Shown here: in pieces, positions 9,839 through 26,022 of the stretch | How the letters are laid out: the number at the start of each line of letters is the position of its first letter | How positions within the stretch are numbered: the first letter of the stretch is position 1 | Assembly: GCF_000233715.2 (NCBI RefSeq) | Contig: NC_021184.1 | Coordinates: forward strand, 4,584,001-4,648,000 | Source of the DNA: Desulfoscipio gibsoniae DSM 7213 | GTDB lineage: Bacteria > Bacillota > Desulfotomaculia > Desulfotomaculales > Desulfallaceae | DNA length: 64,000 bases | Direction of reading: 5' to 3' | Notes under the pieces: model-generated | What the model was told of the DNA's origin: nothing | The model's input: only the letters and a program-made list of their open reading frames with translations | The model's database searches: none | Translations under genes and position numbers: made by a program

Positions 9839-10747
9839 TTAAAGCCCAGCCACCTGTCTGCCGTTTCTAAAGGCGCTGTCGCCTTCCAGGTTCTTTAAAA
9901 GGTGAAGCCTGGCGGTTTCAAATTCTTTGCCGATAAGGCCTAGTCTCAAAAGCCAGGTTCTAAAAGTGTACTTGGGGTTTGAGGTCTCAGTCTTCTTGGC
10001 GCTGGCGTTCTTTTGGCTTAAAGCCTGGTAACTTACCGCCAAGCAAAACTGTATGTAGGCTTTGACTTTCCCGGCGTGGGTGGTTCCGTTGAAAAGCCTA
10101 AACTCTACCGTGGGGCCGTTGAAAGTAGCATGTAAGTTTAACCCGTGGTAGCGGCTGCTGTGGTAATGTTGGCTGCGGCTGCCGCTGTAACCCTGGTACC
10201 AAAGGTCGGCCAGCTGCTCCAGCTCCGTTGGCTTTCGCCGGTTCAGTTCTGCCAAAAAGCTTTCCTTTACCTTTTGGCAGTACCGGCGTTTCCGCTGCTC
10301 GTCCACCTGCAGAGCTTGGTAAATCAAGTCCTCTTTGCTGGCCACAATGTTGACCAGATTCCGTAAAGTTTTGGCGGTGAATCTTTCTTTGCCAATGTGC
10401 AGGTGTATCCCGCAGCTCTTATTAGCGAAGGCCCCGACCTTTCTTAAGGTTCTGATGATCTCCTGCACCGTTTCGATGTCGCCGTAGGTGCAGATGGGGG
10501 AGACTAGCTCCACTCGGTGGTCTAATCCCGCTGCGATTCTTTTGCCTTGCCGCTTGGTTTCCGGCCTGATGCTGCTGTCGTTCATAATAAACCAGCTGCG
10601 GCCTTGGTTGTCCGGCGCTTCCCATTTGTCGTAGCCGCCGCCAAGGTAGTGGGCGCTGGTGCCGAAGTATCCCGCCACTGCTTTGGCCGCCGCTTCCCTG
10701 GAAATCCCCGTTAGCTCAATTTCTATCCCGAAGGTTAAGTTTTTCAT
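9839..10747 (-). CDS. Amidoligase-family enzyme (COOH-NH2 ligase, Amidoligase_2-like)
   Basis: 302 residues. LTFGIEIELTG at 4-14, CGIHLHIGKERF near 115-130 and GPTVEFRLFNGTTHAGKVKAY near 215-235 match the glutamine-synthetase-like amidoligase fold (Glu, His and E-x-R metal/ATP ligands). Members are predicted to form amide bonds between a carboxylate and an amine on peptides, proteins or cell-wall precursors. The last ~40 residues (KYTFRTWLLRLGLIG...GDSAFRNGR) recur in the protein at 11075-11839. The cassette pairs it with a GGCT gene. Substrate unknown. Confidence 0.85.
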   Translation of the reverse strand: MKNLTFGIEIELTGISREAAAKAVAGYFGTSAHYLGGGYDKWEAPDNQGRSWFIMNDSSIRPETKRQGKRIAAGLDHRVELVSPICTYGDIETVQEIIRTLRKVGAFANKSCGIHLHIGKERFTAKTLRNLVNIVASKEDLIYQALQVDEQRKRRYCQKVKESFLAELNRRKPTELEQLADLWYQGYSGSRSQHYHSSRYHGLNLHATFNGPTVEFRLFNGTTHAGKVKAYIQFCLAVSYQALSQKNASAKKTETSNPKYTFRTWLLRLGLIGKEFETARLHLLKNLEGDSAFRNGRQVAGL

Positions 10748-10762
10748 GTTTGGAAAACCCCC

Positions 10763-10815
10763 TGTGTGTTTTTGGTAGTCTATATATCACTCTAAACACA
10801 CATAATAGCAAGGGT
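10763..10815 (-). promoter_or_regulatory. Structured leader B (before amidoligase gene)
   Basis: Minus strand: CCCTTGCTATT, then a perfect 9-bp stem TGTGTGTTT (10802-10794) / AAACACACA (10771-10763) enclosing AGTGATATATAGACTACC. A GGGGG ribosome site abuts the 3' arm and the ATG follows at 10747. Confidence 0.7.
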
Positions 10816-10885
10816 TATTTTCCTTAAAAGTTAATATTTAGGCGGTTGTTTAGCCAGAGAAAAGACCGGTGCTTATGCCCCAGCC

Positions 10886-11074
10886 TTATTCCGCATCCAC
10901 ATATTCCATGATTATCTGCAGTGCTCTGTCGTAGCTTTCGGACTTAAAAATCCGCTCTCGCATTTCTGCCGCTTGTTCCTCCAGCCCGGCATCTTTAAGT
11001 GTGCGGCTGGCGATGCCCATTAGGTTAAAGATGTTGCCGTTTTCACCGACCAATTTGCATCTTGGTTTGGTCAT
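10886..11074 (-). CDS. Small phage protein of the amidoligase cassette, unknown
   Basis: 62 residues, MTKPRCKLVGENGNIFNLMG..., helical and acidic at the C-terminus. Good GGAGGGAGC site; the ATG directly follows the stop of the upstream gene at 11075. I recall similar small proteins beside phage amidoligase-type genes, but assign no function. Confidence 0.7.
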   Translation of the reverse strand: MTKPRCKLVGENGNIFNLMGIASRTLKDAGLEEQAAEMRERIFKSESYDRALQIIMEYVDAE

Positions 11075-11839
11075 TTACGCTCCCTCCTGGACTTGTTTTC
11101 TAAAAGCGCTGTTACCGGGGAGGTTTTGCAAAAGAACCCGGCGGGCTAGCCTGTAGTCATCGCCTATCATCCCTAAGCGCAGGAGCCAAGTACGGAAAGT
11201 ATACTTCTCATTGTCGGTGGCCTTGACCTTGGCCGCTACATTCCGCTGCAGCCGCCTGACATTGATGTTTATCAATTCTAAAAGCTGGGTGGCGGCTTCT
11301 ACCTTCTCCGAGTCATCTCCATCCCGCCCCAGCTTGAAAGTAATGGCTCCCTTGTTGAAATCAAAGTCAATACCGGGGCAGCTTTTGCCTGCCAGTGCAT
11401 TTTGGAAATGCTCCAGAGTTGTCATGGGCTGCTGGTTTAAAGCGTTAATAACTTCCTTGCTCACCAAATCGGTATCAAGGTTTAACGCCTTTTTAATTAA
11501 CGGCTGCTTACTGTAAATCATGTGGAGCAGGTTCCGCAAACTCCGGCCATCGTAGCCTTCCAAAGGTATCCCTACTTCCAAAGCAGTGGGTTTTGTTTCG
11601 ACAGAAGTGTTCGCTTCCGCAGTTTCCTTTTGCTCAGTTACGATCTCCAACTCCGGTTCCTCCTTCCCGCCTGCCAGCAGCGCCTCCAGTTCCAGCACCT
11701 GACCCTCGCTGTCAAGGATATTGCCTTGTCGGTTAACGGTATATTCGCCAACTTGATAAGCAAAGCTGGGGGCAGCTAAATAGACAGGTCGTATTCCTAA
11801 ATGCTCAGCCAGCTTGTGTACAAGCTCTTTTCTGGTCAT
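11075..11839 (-). CDS. Amidoligase-related phage protein, probably non-catalytic (so-called virulence-related family)
   Basis: 254 residues from the ATG at 11839 after GGAGGGG. The N-terminal ~45 residues (MTRKELVHKLAEHLGIRPVYL) form a small domain, then an acidic linker. From ~residue 90 (GRSLRNLLHMIYSKQPLIKKAL) it is colinear with the amidoligase at 9839-10747 (AKTLRNLVNIVASKEDLIYQAL) and shares the C-terminal KYTFRTWLLRLG block, but the E-x-R and HLH catalytic segments are replaced (ITFKLGRDGDD instead of VEFRLFNGTTH). It looks like a pseudoenzyme partner or recognition subunit; that role is inferred. Confidence 0.7.
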   Translation of the reverse strand: MTRKELVHKLAEHLGIRPVYLAAPSFAYQVGEYTVNRQGNILDSEGQVLELEALLAGGKEEPELEIVTEQKETAEANTSVETKPTALEVGIPLEGYDGRSLRNLLHMIYSKQPLIKKALNLDTDLVSKEVINALNQQPMTTLEHFQNALAGKSCPGIDFDFNKGAITFKLGRDGDDSEKVEAATQLLELININVRRLQRNVAAKVKATDNEKYTFRTWLLRLGMIGDDYRLARRVLLQNLPGNSAFRKQVQEGA

Positions 11840-11851
11840 CTTGGGTCCCCT

Positions 11852-11905
11852 CCTGTGATTTTTGGTATGTCTATACATCACTTAAAACCACAGGAATAGC
11901 AAGGG
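11852..11905 (-). promoter_or_regulatory. Structured leader C (before amidoligase-related gene)
   Basis: Minus strand: CCCTTGCTATT then CCTGTGGTTTT (11894-11884) pairing with AAAAATCACAGG (11863-11852), loop AAGTGATGTATAGACATACC. AGG of the AGGAGGGG ribosome site is within the 3' arm, so folding would mask part of the site. Confidence 0.7.
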
Positions 11906-11907
11906 AT

Positions 11908-13131
11908 TTATAGCAGGTCAGCGTATCTAATTTTCTGGCCATCCCGGATTAAATAGACATCATTATCGGAGCCAGTGTGCTCAATGTATCTTTTCACTCC
12001 TACATCTACGAAGCGTTCCTCCAACTCGGTAGCATAGCAAATACGATCCAGCTGTTCGCAAGCAATCCCTGTTGAAAAGCTGCCGGAGAAGGGGTCGAGC
12101 ACGATGCCATTGGGAGCACTGCTGTTTTGGATGGGGTAAGCGCACAGAGCCACTGGCTTCGTAGTTGGATGGAGTTTTGATTTGGCTGGCCGGTCAAAAT
12201 TCCATACCGTCCTATGTTTTCTATCACCGTAAAACTTATGGCCTGCTGTGGGCTTCCATAGATATAAAATGGGTTCATGAGCGTATAAATAGTCGCATCT
12301 ACTAAGCACCGGTGCGTTTTTCACCCAAATGCAGGTTTGGTGACAAAAGAAGCCAGCGTCCCTAAAGGCGGTTCTAAAATTAACGGTTTCCCTGTCTGCA
12401 TGAAAAATATAGGCAACGCCACCGTCTATAACATTTTCATACATATTTGTGGCGGCCTTTAGGAGAAATTCGTAAAATTCCCTGTCTCCCATATTATCGT
12501 TTTTAATTTTCCCTGCCGTTCCTTCGTAGTCCACGTTATAAGGCAAGTCACTGACTATGAGATTGGCCTTCTTCCCATCCAACAATTTCTCGTAAGTTTC
12601 AACTTTGGTACTGTCCCCGCAGAACAGCCGGTGCCTTCCCAGCAGCCACAAGTCACCGGGTTTACTGATGACCGGTTCCTTCAAAGCTCCGTCCACATCG
12701 AAGTCATCTTCTTTGACATCCTTATCGTGTACCTTGGAAAATAAATCCTCTATCTCAGCGGCATCAAAGCCGGTAATGCTCACATCAAATATTCCGTTAT
12801 CCAGTTCGCTGATTAAGTCGGCCAGTTTAGGCAGGTCCCATTCACCAGTGACTTTATTAAGCGTTATGTTCAGGGCCTTTTCCCGCTGCTCATCCAGATC
12901 CACTACTACACACTCAATCTCGGTTTCCCCTTGGTGCTGTAAAACTTTAAATCTCTGGTGGCCCCCTACGATCTGACCAGTGCGTTTATTCCACACGATG
13001 GGCTCCACATAGCCAAAGGTCTCCATGGATTTTTTAAGCTTCTCGTATTCCGGATCTCCGGGCTTTAAGTCTTTCCGTGGGTTATATTTGGCCGGGTTTA
13101 ATTTCTCCAGCGGTAGTTTTTGTATCTCCAA
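11908..13131 (-). CDS. ParB-like N-domain / DNA methyltransferase fusion, divergent catalytic motifs
   Basis: 407 residues, TTG start at 13131 after AGGAGGTGTAAGGA. Residues 1 to ~110 are a ParB/Srx-like nuclease-type domain (GQIVGGHQRFKVLQ). The rest is an N4/N6 amino-methyltransferase domain. Motif IV reads SDLPYNVDY where DPPY is standard, and the SAM motif reads LDPFSGSFSTG where FxGxG is expected, so activity may be altered. Such fusions modify phage DNA against host restriction. It follows a paralogue (13135-14529) by 3 bp. Confidence 0.85.
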   Translation of the reverse strand: MEIQKLPLEKLNPAKYNPRKDLKPGDPEYEKLKKSMETFGYVEPIVWNKRTGQIVGGHQRFKVLQHQGETEIECVVVDLDEQREKALNITLNKVTGEWDLPKLADLISELDNGIFDVSITGFDAAEIEDLFSKVHDKDVKEDDFDVDGALKEPVISKPGDLWLLGRHRLFCGDSTKVETYEKLLDGKKANLIVSDLPYNVDYEGTAGKIKNDNMGDREFYEFLLKAATNMYENVIDGGVAYIFHADRETVNFRTAFRDAGFFCHQTCIWVKNAPVLSRCDYLYAHEPILYLWKPTAGHKFYGDRKHRTVWNFDRPAKSKLHPTTKPVALCAYPIQNSSAPNGIVLDPFSGSFSTGIACEQLDRICYATELEERFVDVGVKRYIEHTGSDNDVYLIRDGQKIRYADLL

Positions 13132-13134
13132 TCC

Positions 13135-14529
13135 TTACACCTCCTGCCTTACTGCCTTCTCCCCGGTGAACTGCTCCCAGCGTTTAACGGCCAAATCACA
13201 ATACCCTGGGGACAATTCCATGGCATAACAGTTTCTACCCAGCTGCTCAGCGGCCATGATGGTGGTGCCAGAGCCGCTGAAGGGTTCGTAAACGTTATCC
13301 CCCACATTGGTAGTGAGCTTGATGAAAAAGGCCGGTAGCTTCACTGGAAATGCGGCTGAGTGTTTTACGGAACTTTGATTGCCGGGTATCTGCAGCACAT
13401 TGCCTGGCCTGGCAATGCCTTTTTTGAATTTACCGCTGACGCTGATGTTGCCGGAGTCGCCTTTGGATTTATTGTTTTTGCTATAGACCCGGATTAAATC
13501 AGACTGTTTCCCTACCGCCCTGGGTTTGAATTTAATTTTCTTAGCTTTGGTGAAGTGGAAAATGTCCTCGTACATTTCCACCAGGTCCGCCGGTAATGTT
13601 GCCAATCTACCCTCATCAACATCTACCAGCTGCACCATCCAGTCGATCTGTTCCTTCTTGGCGAAAAAGTGTACCGGTTCAAAGTCATTTCTCAAGCGGT
13701 TAGACCAGCCACCGGGCAGCCCTGGCTTCGTCCAGATTAGCTGATCCACATACCGCCAGCCACCTTCCACCAAAGCAATGATGGTTTTCATCACGTAAAG
13801 GGAACGCTGGCCGCCCTCAACGTGTTCCTTGATATTGACGAAGAAGGAGCCGCTGTCGTCAAGTATCCGGTAAACATTACTGGCCACATGAAAAAACCAG
13901 ACCGGATATTCCTCTGCCGGTATCCCGCCGTAGTCGTCCTTGCGCTGCATGGCGTAGGGCGGGGAGGTAATAACGCAGTTGGCTTTTTCTCCGTTCATCA
14001 GTTTTTCAACATCGGCAATATTTGTGCTATCACCACAAAGTAACCGGTGATTGCCTAAGAGCCAGATGTCCCCTGGTTTAGTGATGGGCTGCTCCGGTGC
14101 TTCCTCGTCAAAGTTATCCTCCTGGACTTCTTCTTTAAAGCCCAGCAATTCATCTATTTCCTCGGCATCAAAGCCGGTAATATCTTTTAAGTCATCATCC
14201 AAGTTCTTGAGCAGCTCGCTCAGTTTGGGCAGATCCCATTGACCGGCGATTTTATTAAGGGTAATGTTTAAGGCCCTTTCACGGTCAGGTGGCAAATCAA
14301 CCACGGATACTTCCGTTTCGGTATCTCCCCGCTCCAGTAAAATTTTTAGTCGTTGGTGGCCAGAGATGAGCACGTTGCCCCGCTTGTTCATCACCAAAGG
14401 TTCCACCAGGTCAAATTCGTCAATAGATTTCTTTAATTTCTCGTATTCAGCATCCCCCGGCTTTAAGTCCTTACGAGGATTGTATTTGGCCGGGTTAATC
14501 TGGTCTAACGGGATGCGCTGAATCTCCAA
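13135..14529 (-). CDS. ParB-like N-domain / DNA methyltransferase fusion
   Basis: About 464 residues. The frame opens at a GTG (14538), but a TTG at 14529 has the better spacing from AAGGAGG and matches the TTG-GAG-AT start of the paralogue. ParB-like domain at the N-terminus (NVLISGHQRLKILLERGDTE), then a methyltransferase with intact motif IV TSPPY (typical of N4-cytosine or N6-adenine enzymes) and intact SAM motif EPFSGSGTT. N-terminal ~120 residues are clearly homologous to those of 11908-13131, so the two arose by duplication. Between 14530 and 14733 I see no gene. Confidence 0.9.
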   Translation of the reverse strand: MEIQRIPLDQINPAKYNPRKDLKPGDAEYEKLKKSIDEFDLVEPLVMNKRGNVLISGHQRLKILLERGDTETEVSVVDLPPDRERALNITLNKIAGQWDLPKLSELLKNLDDDLKDITGFDAEEIDELLGFKEEVQEDNFDEEAPEQPITKPGDIWLLGNHRLLCGDSTNIADVEKLMNGEKANCVITSPPYAMQRKDDYGGIPAEEYPVWFFHVASNVYRILDDSGSFFVNIKEHVEGGQRSLYVMKTIIALVEGGWRYVDQLIWTKPGLPGGWSNRLRNDFEPVHFFAKKEQIDWMVQLVDVDEGRLATLPADLVEMYEDIFHFTKAKKIKFKPRAVGKQSDLIRVYSKNNKSKGDSGNISVSGKFKKGIARPGNVLQIPGNQSSVKHSAAFPVKLPAFFIKLTTNVGDNVYEPFSGSGTTIMAAEQLGRNCYAMELSPGYCDLAVKRWEQFTGEKAVRQEV

Positions 14530-14733
14530 AAGGGCCACCTCCTTCTTAACCTGCTTAAAATCGCTGTATTTCGTGCCATGTCAAGCATTAGACCTTGACA
14601 ACCCCCATCTGGAATTTTGCGAATTCCCACGCGAAGGCCCGCGCCCGCTCTGGAGCCGCTTAGCTGCAGGGTTTGAGGACCCCCTACCCTAATTTATCCA
14701 CAGCGTTATCTACAGGTCAGGCTGGTAATTATA

Positions 14734-23721: not shown

Positions 23722-26022
23722 TTAATCTTTCTGGTAAAAATCACATTCGAAGCCCTCCGCCCGAAGTAACAGCCCCTTGGCCCAAGGCGGAATTTGGCTC
23801 ATTTGTTCGCACACCGTCCGAACTGACATTTGCTGTTCAGCTTCGATGACGATTTCGTCATGGATGTGCATCACGATAGGCAAATGCCGCAGGTTCTGCA
23901 TGGCATAACACAGAAGGTCACGGCTGATTGCCTGAATAATGTTTTCAACAATTTTCGCACCGTATGTTTCCAGCCGCTCCCACTTCTTAGCCGCACCAAT
24001 ACCTTCATAAGTCACACTGTCGGAGCCAAAGTGGTTAGTACCAATGCGAGGTTTCACATAGGCCAGCCGTCTGCCAGAAGGCAAGGTGATAAACAGCATT
24101 CCGCTTTGATAAGCAAAACGGATACCGTGAGTTTCTGTGGTGGTGCGTTCCCGAACTGCGGTTAATGCCGCCCGGTCAACGTCCCACCAAAAGCGGACAA
24201 TGTTGGGGTTGGCTGCTCTCCAGGCATCAACCAGTGGTTTTAGTTCTTCCTCTGTAAGTCCCATTTCCAAAGCACCCATGGCCTTTATTGCACCCACCGA
24301 GCCGCCGTAGCCGCAGTTATGAACCAAACACAGCCGCCGTCCGTTCCATACTGCAAACCGGTGCCGCCTGCCGCAGTTCACCAGGTCATATACCCGTTTT
24401 ACCCCGGCGGGGGTAGGGGATAATGCCTGGACAGCACTATTTGGACGATAAACCCCGGCCCAATGAAGGCCGCCACTTTTACCGCTTTCCACCCAGCCCT
24501 GATTAGTTAAAACCAGGTGGTCTGGGGTGCATATCACACCATCAACGTTTACGGTCTCCCGCTGGCCTTTGTGAACTAAACCTCCATGGGTTACCCACCC
24601 TTGGCCATCCCAAACTTTATGTTCTGTGGTAACTTCCTCTATGGGTACAAGTCCTGTATCCGTCAACACCAGTTGCCCTTTCGCTATACAGGCCAAATCC
24701 GCAATTTTACCTTTTTGCCTGAGTGGGTCTTTTTTATCTGTAATAGGCACACCAAACATCTGACTAGCGGTAGCGATGTATAAATCCTTTTTAGCAGCGT
24801 AGGCATCTAGCACCCACCGCTCCCCGGCAAGCCAGGCCAACACTACCCGCTCGATTGATGAGAAATCCGCCACGATGAATTTATAACCGAGTTTGGGAAT
24901 GAAGGCGGTTCTAATTAATTCCGACAGCACTTCCGGCACCGAATCATAGAGCATCTCCAAAGCGGTAAAATTACCGGAGCGCACAAGGCTCCTGGCTTGT
25001 GCCAAACCAGGCATGTCGTTCCTCGGTAAATTTTGTGGCTGTAAAAGCCTGCCTGACCATCGCCCGGTTCGATTGGCACCATAGAATTGAAATATTCCAC
25101 GAGTGCGATTATCTAGACAGGCCACGTTTTCCATGGCCTGATACTTTTTCACTGATGATTTAGCCAGCTGCTGGCGAAGTTGCAGCACTTCATCCAGGGG
25201 TTTAGGTGCTGTTTCCAATAGCTCCGCCACAGCTTTTTTGCCCAGGGTATCTGTCTCAAGCCCATGGTCAGCTAACCATTCTTTTAGCTGTTGTACGGAA
25301 TTGGGATTATCAAGGTCTGTCAGCTCGCCCATTCTCCCTAATAGTTCAGAGCGGGTACGCTCATCGGCTTTAATGGCTTGCTGGACAAGGGTCATATCCA
25401 AAGCCACACCCCGGTCGTTTATCTCCTGATCCAGGTGGAATTCGTCCCAAATGTTCTCCGGCACGGGAAACTTGGCTAACCTTTCCTGAATGGCTATTTC
25501 CACCTCCACATCCCGGCGGTTATAGGCTTTGAACTGTTCCCACTTAGCCGGGTCATGGATGGGCAGATTCCTTGTCCGCTTACCGTTAGCAATAGTTGGT
25601 TTACACGGGGTGCAGAAGTAGCGGATTAAATCTTTCCCTTCCGTTAATTTTTGTTTTTCCAATCCCAGCACCGCACCCACTCCTTCTAAAGAAAGGGGCA
25701 GTCCCATATAGGCCGACCAAACCATGGTGCAGCGCCAGGGCCTTGGATCGAGATATTGAAGTCCCAACCAGCGGGATAAACAGATGCGTTCAAACTGACT
25801 GTTAAAGGCCCACTTGGTAACACCAGGGTCAGTTAATGCATGTATTATTTCATCCGGCAACTTCTCACCGGCGGTAAAATCCACTACCTGAACCTCACCG
25901 CCATCCACGCTGTAGCCAAACAGGAGTATTTCAAAATCGTGTGATTCGGCGTATTTATAAACACCGGTCTTTTTAAGGTCTGCACTGGAAAATGTCTCAA
26001 TATCGATTCCGAGCGTTTTCAT
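23722..26022 (-). CDS. Family A DNA polymerase of phage, interrupted by a mini-intein
   Basis: 766 residues from ATG 26022 (AAAGGAGAATCC leader); an apparent upstream extension to 26364 is the neighbouring gene read in another frame. Exonuclease motif I DIET at 7-10; polymerase motif A FIVADFSSIE with Asp386; motif C IHDE near the C-terminus. Motif B (O helix) is R435-Q-K-G-K439...GYGG and is split after Ala444 by a 125-residue intein (445-569). Lys439 and the Tyr two residues after Cys570 align with Lys758 and Tyr766 of E. coli Pol I, so only the spliced 641-residue product can be active. Confidence 0.93.
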   Translation of the reverse strand: MKTLGIDIETFSSADLKKTGVYKYAESHDFEILLFGYSVDGGEVQVVDFTAGEKLPDEIIHALTDPGVTKWAFNSQFERICLSRWLGLQYLDPRPWRCTMVWSAYMGLPLSLEGVGAVLGLEKQKLTEGKDLIRYFCTPCKPTIANGKRTRNLPIHDPAKWEQFKAYNRRDVEVEIAIQERLAKFPVPENIWDEFHLDQEINDRGVALDMTLVQQAIKADERTRSELLGRMGELTDLDNPNSVQQLKEWLADHGLETDTLGKKAVAELLETAPKPLDEVLQLRQQLAKSSVKKYQAMENVACLDNRTRGIFQFYGANRTGRWSGRLLQPQNLPRNDMPGLAQARSLVRSGNFTALEMLYDSVPEVLSELIRTAFIPKLGYKFIVADFSSIERVVLAWLAGERWVLDAYAAKKDLYIATASQMFGVPITDKKDPLRQKGKIADLACIAKGQLVLTDTGLVPIEEVTTEHKVWDGQGWVTHGGLVHKGQRETVNVDGVICTPDHLVLTNQGWVESGKSGGLHWAGVYRPNSAVQALSPTPAGVKRVYDLVNCGRRHRFAVWNGRRLCLVHNCGYGGSVGAIKAMGALEMGLTEEELKPLVDAWRAANPNIVRFWWDVDRAALTAVRERTTTETHGIRFAYQSGMLFITLPSGRRLAYVKPRIGTNHFGSDSVTYEGIGAAKKWERLETYGAKIVENIIQAISRDLLCYAMQNLRHLPIVMHIHDEIVIEAEQQMSVRTVCEQMSQIPPWAKGLLLRAEGFECDFYQKD
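24316..24690 (-). other. Mini-intein in DNA polymerase motif B
   Basis: 125 residues. Starts with Cys1 (CIAKGQLVLTDTG, block A), block B GVICTPDHLVLTNQG with T-x-x-H, C-terminal blocks F/G VYDLVNCGRRHRFAV...LVHN, with terminal Asn and the downstream extein Cys (+1). Penultimate His present. All residues needed for canonical splicing are there. No homing endonuclease or DOD/HNH motif fits in this length, so it is a minimal, non-mobile or cross-mobilised intein. Extein junctions: KIADLA / CGYGG. Confidence 0.93.

Follow-up and report, generated by a model that had tools for sequence, protein, structure and literature searches.

The 125 residues that interrupt the family A DNA polymerase of a prophage in Desulfoscipio gibsoniae DSM 7213 are confirmed, by sequence and structure prediction, as a class-1-type mini-intein. 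As a whole, the evidence is very probably best explained by a splicing mini-intein (splicing being predicted) that belongs to a dual-coding family, in which an HNH endonuclease is translated separately from the splicing domain and mini-inteins arise by in-frame deletion. The polymerase gene lies in the window, i.e. the whole stretch of 64,000 nucleotides that was analysed, and comprises the following features:

23722-26022, minus strand: family A DNA polymerase precursor gene in the prophage replication module (766 aa; PF00476, 3.1e-18; phrog_17 DNA polymerase, 2.9e-138)
24316-24690, minus strand: 125-aa mini-intein, a Hint domain only, without endonuclease (from motifs, empty sites and predicted fold)
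24688-24690, minus strand: Cys1 codon, first intein residue, block A (Cys1 invariant in 21/21 rows of alignment A4)
24517-24528, minus strand: block B TPDH, residues 55-58 (T55 and H58 invariant in alignment A4)
24403-24456, minus strand: low-confidence loop region, about residues 79-96 (AlphaFold2 mean pLDDT of 62 for residues 81-90)
24316-24321, minus strand: block G, with the codons of the penultimate His and the terminal Asn (the last Asn codon being 24316-24318)
24313-24315, minus strand: +1 Cys codon, first C-extein residue (from the sequence, homologue comparison and Klenow alignment), which we take to be position 764 of Pol I

The intein boundaries proposed in the initial annotation proved exact, with the Cys1, TPDH, HN and +1 Cys codons all located, and removal of the intein (375 nt) from the 766-aa precursor is predicted to leave a 641-aa product. 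In alignment A4 (21 rows), D102 and N125 are also invariant and H124 is nearly so; H110, replaced by Asn in some relatives, is present. The insert therefore carries the residues of a class 1 intein: Cys1, the block B TxxH motif, the block F Asp and His, the terminal HN and the +1 Cys. The AlphaFold2 model of the 125 residues (pLDDT 92.9, pTM 0.84) supports a Hint fold, as does a Foldseek search of the PDB with this model, in which all 37 matches at E<=0.001 are titled inteins, intein-like domains or splicing intermediates. No Pfam family is found in the 125 residues and NCBIfam TIGR01445 scores 13.7 bits, below its cut-off of 24.5, so that standard annotation would overlook the mini-intein. 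The absence of an endonuclease, already claimed in the initial annotation, holds: the 125 codons contain neither an endonuclease domain nor another minus-strand ORF of at least 60 aa, and PHROGs names no HNH family in them. The match to phrog_93 'endonuclease' (1.8e-5) covers residues 20-63 only, which correspond to a Hint block.

The insert is in frame and interrupts the polymerase at one exact point where homologues have none. Among the 80 best viral homologues (out of 462), 70 lack an insert at the junction and 10 carry a 309-aa insert at the identical point. One empty site is that of L362 (G105:C24), from a genome of the same order, whose polymerase is 95% identical in amino acids over residues 1-445 and 90% over residues 570-766 and reads GKIADLA|CGYGGSVGA, leaving intact the KIADLA/CGYGG junction that the initial annotation had expected of intein-free phage homologues. 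That the 125 residues could instead be an integral, unspliced polymerase domain has nothing in its favour beyond the open frame; it is contradicted by the insert-free homologues, L362 included, by the variable length of the insert at a single point and by the intein motifs and fold, and is barely credible.

Using phmmer, query residues 367-442 were aligned with positions 363-438 of the Klenow chain. With this chain presumably starting at residue 324 of Pol I, the alignment places the insertion between the equivalents of Pol I residues 763 and 764, inside the O helix and within the Lys758-Tyr766 bracket given by the initial annotation. It is reasonable to predict from this position that polymerase activity needs splicing. 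The initial annotation had gone further and seen in the intein a natural switch for phage replication, an idea to which the O-helix position lends some appeal but which we consider very unlikely. Inteins usually sit in conserved active-site motifs of their host proteins, a preference that homing would explain. Moreover, a 90-95%-identical polymerase does without the intein, no regulatory sequence feature was found, and a relative of the mini-intein occurs in just 3 of the 113 genomes of the order (own included), where a polymerase relative at E<=1e-60 occurs in 13. In a search of the host's taxonomic family, 1 of 16 genomes had the intein, namely that of the window.

This sporadic distribution would also fit a decayed, non-splicing intein in a dead prophage polymerase, the more so as no HNH gene is left and hence no homing to maintain the element. 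Yet the catalytic positions are kept, the frame is open and the fold is predicted with high confidence. The comparison with L261, a 128-aa mini-intein at the same site, gives 61% identity and a low pN/pS of 0.28 (pN 0.225 and pS 0.804, the latter being saturated). Decay is thus improbable, and we retain a mini-intein that is predicted to splice.

The full-size relatives at the same site carry an HNH endonuclease in a second reading frame, and this is the main point that goes beyond the initial annotation. We collected 117 non-redundant full-size inteins (251-332 aa), all found with baits from this family and chosen for Hint N and Hint C within one open frame. The HNH sequence is out of frame in every one of them, in +1 relative to the intein in 100 and in +2 in 17; in-frame HNH inteins may exist elsewhere. 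HNH was likewise out of frame in 52/52 full-size inteins found with a Hint alignment; the bait of another search was the whole precursor, and one of its six search peptides falls in the intein. All six HNH ORFs scanned have phrog_374 'HNH endonuclease' as best match (1.1e-19 to 1.6e-69), Pfam names no HNH family in 7/7 HNH ORFs (weak matches only), and a PDB sequence search with HNH query A1 gave 0 matches at E<=0.01. The HNH ORF is shorter than 200 codons in 10 of the 117 inteins, L092 among them.

Synonymous shuffling of the HNH frame predicts 1067.5 stops in the intein frame of the 117 inteins, as compared to none observed, and stop avoidance is significant (P<0.05) in 116 of them, the exception being L099 (P=0.11). 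In the 11 non-redundant, ungapped inteins of 309 codons, the most variable codon position is the third in codons 1-60 and 301-309 and the first in codons 61-300, and over codons 95-265 the polymerase frame shows an amino acid identity of 0.317, versus 0.665 for the HNH frame. Along the insert, constraint thus passes to the HNH frame and then returns to that of the intein. A divergent in-frame endonuclease was also considered for the central part of the 309-aa inserts, which all-frame translation and the codon-position and shuffle tests refute; in L001, this filler (residues 86-281) has pLDDT values below 50 and no predicted fold. As a control, in a LAGLIDADG-like in-frame intein found in this polymerase family, alternative ORFs do not exceed 76 codons and variability is highest at position 3.

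The mini-intein of the window shares Hint homology and insertion site with members that have an out-of-frame HNH gene, and its loop at about residues 79-96 marks the point at which the 309-aa relatives are longer by 184 codons, which for the most part overlap that gene. No out-of-frame HNH was found in the window copy among minus-strand ORFs or with PHROGs, nor any HNH remnant. Its sequence is most readily interpreted as that of a dual-coding family member without a HEN. The bare Hint domain would use Cys1, the block B Thr and His, His124-Asn125 and Cys+1 to restore the 641-residue polymerase. In full-size members, the polymerase frame encodes the Hint domain, and the gene of the HNH endonuclease, a putative homing enzyme, is nested in +1 or, less often, +2. 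With the polymerase frame kept stop-free across the HNH gene, the precursor would hold nearly 200 residues of apparently unstructured filler.

Most likely, the endonuclease itself is made as a separate product whose translation begins inside conserved Hint codons, the candidate starts being an ATG overlapping Tyr49 for +1 and an ATG overlapping the x-Trp32 junction for +2. At the +1 site, TAT is found in 51/57 rows versus 74/111 elsewhere (p=0.0013), and at the +2 site, ATG in 14/16 versus 23/78 (p=2e-5), both p values being optimistic because the rows are related. A Shine-Dalgarno-like stretch is present in 48/57 rows versus 12/21 in mini-inteins (p=0.017, rows again related). The +1 start is less regular at other insertion sites (ATG in 11 of the 19 with the motif, which 19 of 39 have) and also occurs in mini-inteins (13/21). 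Alternatively, two programmed frameshifts could make the relatives' endonuclease, a minority of precursors then having the two Hint halves joined by a classical HNH domain, and indeed many copies have an HNH ORF that extends into both Hint ends. We regard this as unlikely: the expected overlaps are enriched in start codons, many of them accompanied by a Shine-Dalgarno-like stretch, and 11 split arrangements have HNH as an ORF of its own, flanked by the two pieces.

These split arrangements emerged from 100 loci with HNH and an upstream Hint N that were not selected for openness, of which 88 are open, 11 split and 1 frameshifted. Hint C is in the same frame in 87 and in a separate ORF in 11; L224 ends before Hint C and L182 is the frameshifted locus. 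Each of the 11 loci interrupted by stops has a split-intein layout built around this same HNH, with IntN, HNH and IntC ORFs in a row, the HNH ORF overlapping both halves and lying in +1 relative to IntN. At 59 of 159 HNH loci there is no upstream Hint N, and one of these, L103, is a rearranged copy. Taken more generally, a large class of phage inteins is probably dual-coding, with splicing domain and endonuclease made as separate proteins coupled only by the ban on stops in the intein frame, and with endonuclease starts drawn from conserved Hint codons. As long as no stop arises, the precursor would excise a filler devoid of meaning; deletion of the HNH stretch would yield mini-inteins, whereas a stop could yield three overlapping ORFs for IntN, HNH and IntC, i.e. 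a split intein.

In-frame deletion of the HNH stretch would account for mini-inteins, and two deletion derivatives, L266 (124 aa) and L295 (150 aa), retain HNH remnants; when the pooled search was made stricter, an HNH match persisted in just 1 of 28 mini-inteins. The window intein may descend from an HNH-bearing ancestor, but it has no HNH remnant and its position in the Hint-block tree is weak (support of 91 for the pair with L261 and 52 for the next node). This tree is too weak for an order of events, so that only the pair and the distance ranking were drawn on; counts of 23 mini/HNH, 3 frame and 16 site changes, likewise obtained from the tree, are not relied upon as results. The initial annotation called the intein small even for a mini-intein: small it is, but not exceptional, as 9 of the 28 mini-inteins in the family have fewer residues, the smallest measuring 110 aa (with ends assigned automatically by rule). 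The shorter relatives also rule out the label of smallest known intein. A passage of PMC7765530 calls Mxe GyrA the smallest intein, with which the Foldseek-matched intein chains of 127-142 residues disagree.

The dual-coding family amounts to a natural, repeated experiment on overlapping genes within a protein predicted to be self-splicing. If our reading is true, it offers a concrete, testable route to both mini-inteins and split inteins. Protein engineering could also draw on the Hint domains of this set, which are very small (110-150 aa).

Among known systems, gp41-1, Npu DnaE and the Spl DnaX mini-intein rank among its best Foldseek matches (TM by query of 0.72-0.81) and resemble the window intein in Hint fold and size class but share only 18-25% sequence identity with it and, from their entry titles, interrupt other host proteins. 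L362 bears at another site, ANRTGRW, a LAGLIDADG-like intein (Pfam LAGLIDADG_3, 19.1 bits, below the cut-off of 22.5) that combines intein and homing endonuclease as the dual-coding relatives do, except that its endonuclease domain is in the same frame. The inteins of APSE-1 P45 and of Salmonella phage DNA polymerase I occupy the same host gene as that of the window. Salmonella phages PIZ SAE-01E2, LP31, S55 and BPS11T2 are annotated with an 'intein-containing DNA polymerase precursor', the APSE-1 record has an HNH CDS inside the polymerase CDS in another frame, and PMC549080 names the DNA polymerase I of bacteriophages in its list of polymerases that carry inteins. The insertion sites in APSE-1 and Salmonella T102, however, differ from that of the window, and the inteins there are of full size, with an out-of-frame HNH, as opposed to 125 aa and HEN-less.

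The usual expectation is that an intein and its endonuclease share one reading frame. None of the literature matches listed describes an intein whose endonuclease is out of frame, and in the text open to searching, the only out-of-frame HNH genes described are those of methylase inserts that are not inteins, the ShiLan domain (Arsenault, Gosselin and Gogarten 2025, PMC11855218). In that paper, ShiLan is an insertion in a phage methylase with an out-of-frame HNH and a stop-free host frame; its authors detect no splicing domain, and in their view it belongs to no known kind of intein and remains in the methylase. The dual-coding relatives share with it the hidden out-of-frame HNH, the stop-free host frame and the question of how HNH is translated. 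They differ by their complete Hint blocks, through which the filler can, as predicted, be spliced out, and a splicing domain does surround the HNH gene, with Hint C in the same frame (87/100) or as a separate ORF (11/100). In the Felix O1 genome paper, a passage rules out inteins since the frame of the HNH genes does not match that of the sequence around them (PMC3185647). The dual-coding family shows that such a frame test is unsafe.

In 'fractured genes', the two halves of a split intein are separated by an endonuclease gene, and they resemble the 11 loci of this family with IntN, HNH and IntC ORFs in a row. Unlike in fractured genes, the HNH ORF of the family overlaps both halves, which links its split forms to the dual-coding cis form.

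The polymerase gene that carries the insert lies in the window (G000:C1:4584001-4648000; G000 is a single contig of 4.86 Mb) together with phage genes for portal, exonuclease, helicase and primase-helicase. It spans 23722-26022 on the minus strand and encodes a 766-residue precursor (N-terminus MKTLGIDIETF) of a family A polymerase (PF00476; phrog_17), which amounts to 641 residues once the insert is removed, as computed from the translation. Translation of the minus strand bore out the insert described in the initial annotation:

24316-24690, minus strand: mini-intein, 125 residues from Cys1 to Asn125, with the polymerase frame unbroken
24313-24315, minus strand: codon of the +1 Cys, directly after Asn125

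The polymerase was aligned by phmmer with the Taq and Klenow fragments as far as the start of the O helix; in Klenow numbering, the insertion point would separate the positions corresponding to residues 763 and 764, in agreement with the O-helix position first proposed. Elsewhere in the window, 9839-14538 holds two adjacent pairs of related genes: two for ParB/DNA methyltransferases (phrog_498) and two amidoligase-like (phrog_2443).

Cys1, T55, H58, D102 and N125 are invariant across 21 alignment rows, and H124 nearly so. Given these 21 rows, AlphaFold2 modelled the window intein with a pLDDT of 92.9, a pTM of 0.84 and a single weak loop (approximately residues 81-90), and the top Foldseek matches in the PDB were inteins and intein-like domains (Spl DnaX, Npu DnaE, Ssp DnaB, gp41-1; TM by query 0.74-0.81 for the first seven rows). 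The closest relative found (tblastn; best 80 of 514 loci) is L261, a mini-intein of 128 residues that shares the insertion site and is 61% identical. Between the two, pN is 0.225 and pS 0.804: the protein is conserved despite synonymous saturation. Taken together, the retained motifs, the predicted Hint fold and a pN below pS lead us to expect that the window mini-intein splices.

A search of viral sequences with the whole precursor yielded 462 stretches encoding a relative, the best 80 of which were analysed. The insertion site is vacant in 70 of them, with Leu (62) or Cys (8) as the +1 residue, and the other ten carry an insert of exactly 309 residues; the +1 residue is Cys in 11 of 11 occupied alleles (the window and these ten). 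The site is also vacant in a genome of the same order (locus L362, genome G105), whose polymerase is 95% (residues 1-445) and 90% (residues 570-766) identical to that of the window and whose nucleotide flanks align ungapped over the junction. The proposed alignment with intein-free homologues gave an empty junction in these 70 viral relatives and in L362. The initial annotation had also seen in the intein a regulatory switch of phage replication; nothing in the present analysis speaks for this idea, and a homing element that targets conserved DNA would be expected to insert into the O helix.

The DNA of the 309-residue inteins (n = 10) also encodes, in the +1 frame, a conserved protein whose motifs include NYGxRGIxF and E-x-DRI(D/N). 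In a PHROGs scan of six ORFs (two from 309-residue inteins, plus related ORFs from other sites), the top family was the HNH endonuclease phrog_374 in all six (1.1e-19 to 1.6e-69), and the sole matches of the intein frame at loci L001 and L097 were Hint-type stretches of phrog_26005 and phrog_93. Among the 192 phage records matching the window intein, 13 were examined in detail: ten (phages of Streptococcus (2), Gardnerella, Pseudomonas, Shewanella, Caulobacter, Hamiltonella (APSE-1), Vibrio, EBPR and Salmonella) have a full-size intein whose DNA also contains an HNH-like ORF in a different frame (+1 or +2), at several polymerase sites, and the remaining three comprise two mini-inteins and one intein in another gene. 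The APSE-1 record has an annotated 'HNH endonuclease' CDS within the polymerase CDS.

With a Hint alignment as bait, 79 new loci among the best 80 of 514 were classified as 25 mini-inteins, 52 full-size inteins and two cut by contig ends; the HNH match was out of frame in 52 of 52 full-size inteins. With an HNH alignment as bait, 159 loci were examined (best 80 of 565 from viral contigs; best 79 of 278 bacterial loci, from genomes that include Clostridia, Gardnerella, Peptoniphilus, Selenomonas, Synergistales and Actinomycetaceae). Hint N lies upstream of HNH in 100 of them, the intein frame being open over HNH in 88 (78 in +1, 10 in +2), interrupted in 11 and frameshifted in one (L182); the other 59 are free-standing, other or rearranged (e.g. 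L103). When all loci were pooled (non-redundant at 95% nucleotide identity, Hint N and Hint C required in a single ORF), the 117 full-size inteins had HNH in +1 (100) or +2 (17), with none in frame and none without HNH, counts that are not informative on other inteins, all baits being from this family. Judging from flanking motifs, further polymerase subfamilies and a helicase presumably host such inteins; the host gene at L113, L116, L240, L241, L244, L296, L329 and L332, all with an out-of-frame HNH, is presumably helicase-like. Note that the polymerases of L264, L282 and L133 contain two inteins simultaneously at different sites, and that at L364 (G105:C69) a polymerase with a full dual-coding intein has a shortened C-terminal part running into unrelated sequence. 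An apparent mini-intein, 30% identical to that of the window, occurs in a small non-polymerase gene, presumably resembling ThyX, of Moraxella phage Mcat21 (L098:2159-3091).

Several tests bear on dual coding. Synonymous shuffling of HNH-frame codons in the 117 inteins predicted 1067.5 intein-frame stops inside the HNH ORF vs 0 observed (P<0.05 in 116 of 117; P=0.11 for L099). This set was selected as open; among the 100 loci of the unselected set, 88 are open. Across 11 non-redundant ungapped 309-codon inteins, the most variable position of the intein frame is position 3 in codons 1-60 and 301-309 and position 1 in codons 61-300, the latter being the pattern that constraint on the +1 frame would produce. 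Amino acid identity over codons 95-265 is 0.317 in the intein frame (0 stops), 0.665 in +1 (1 stop) and 0.313 in +2 (114 stops). For the +2 arrangement, represented by 13 site-a inteins, variability is highest at the third HNH-frame position (0.531 vs 0.423 and 0.341). For the 309-residue intein-frame protein of L001, AlphaFold2 (9-sequence alignment) gave pLDDT block means of 73-87 at the Hint ends and a pLDDT under 50 over residues 86-281. As a control, we used an in-frame LAGLIDADG-like intein at another site (ANRTGRW) of the same polymerase family (L362 and L363, both from G105; 306-308 residues; Pfam LAGLIDADG_3 at 19.1 bits, below the cut-off of 22.5): none of its alternative ORFs exceeds 76 codons, and variability peaks at position 3. 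L363 carries, together with this intein, a mini-intein of about 137 residues at the window's site.

The start codons of HNH may lie within Hint. In 14 of the 14 first-examined 309-codon members, a +1-frame ATG overlaps the codon of Hint Tyr49. In the +1 site-a set (61 inteins), 57 have the motif, with ATG in 49, and Tyr is TAT in 51 of 57 at the ATG site vs 74 of 111 elsewhere in the same Hint blocks (p=0.0013, optimistic since rows are related). Eight nucleotides upstream of that ATG, GGAGGT or AAGGAGGT is present in 3 of the 14; most others have a shorter such stretch, and L087 has none. The x-Trp32 junction reads ATG in 14 of 16 inteins of the +2 set, compared with 23 of 78 for the +1 set (p=2e-5, again optimistic for related rows). 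This enrichment points, as a correlation, to internal initiation of HNH translation inside Hint codons; against such a role, we counted that the ATG is less regular at other +1 sites (motif in 19 of 39 only, ATG in 11 of these) and also occurs in 13 of the 21 mini-inteins that have the motif.

Lengths of 145 non-redundant family inteins (window excluded; ends set by an automatic rule) are bimodal, with 28 at 110-168 residues and 117 at 251-332. The window intein, initially called small even for a mini-intein, does lie in the low range of the former group, but 9 of the 28 are below 125 residues. The shortest, L268:3001-3330 (110 residues) and L303:3001-3342 (114 residues), occupy the window's polymerase site, show Cys1 and VHN-C at their ends and are candidates for very small natural inteins. 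In block F, L268 carries a Cys at a position that is Arg in most relatives.

Mini-inteins L266 and L295, which retain pieces of HNH in its former frame, show deletion of the HNH stretch; in the stricter pooled search, only 1 of 28 mini-inteins retains an HNH match. The interrupted loci number 11, several of them nearly the same (e.g. L124-L126), and are arranged as follows:

L120, L122-L127, L130, L132, L135, L145: IntN, HNH (+1) and IntC overlapping in a row

In all 11, on the basis of stop-to-stop ORFs, IntN is on the upstream polymerase piece, whose end is overlapped by the +1 HNH ORF, and IntC and the remainder of the polymerase are in another ORF overlapping the HNH end; by this layout, they are split-intein arrangements in phage polymerases. 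The window intein contains no HNH remnant. In a weak tree, its closest row after L261 is L085, an intein with HNH in +1 at another polymerase site, and both have the C-terminal block FAVWNG. In our interpretation, the window copy belongs to the dual-coding family as a HEN-less member that has possibly moved between polymerase sites.

We found no report of an intein with an out-of-frame endonuclease in the literature searched. The Felix O1 paper uses frame agreement as a criterion for excluding inteins (PMC3185647), and the APSE genomics paper (PMC8579659) has no occurrence of 'intein' and no mention of an endonuclease in its p45 passages. Out-of-frame HNH in phage inserts is known from other reports: an insert in a methylase of phage Applejack (PMC12613952), and the ShiLan domain along with another methylase insert, Pacc40 (PMC11855218). 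The present family consists of inteins, in contrast to the ShiLan domain, which that report explicitly does not identify as one (PMC11855218).
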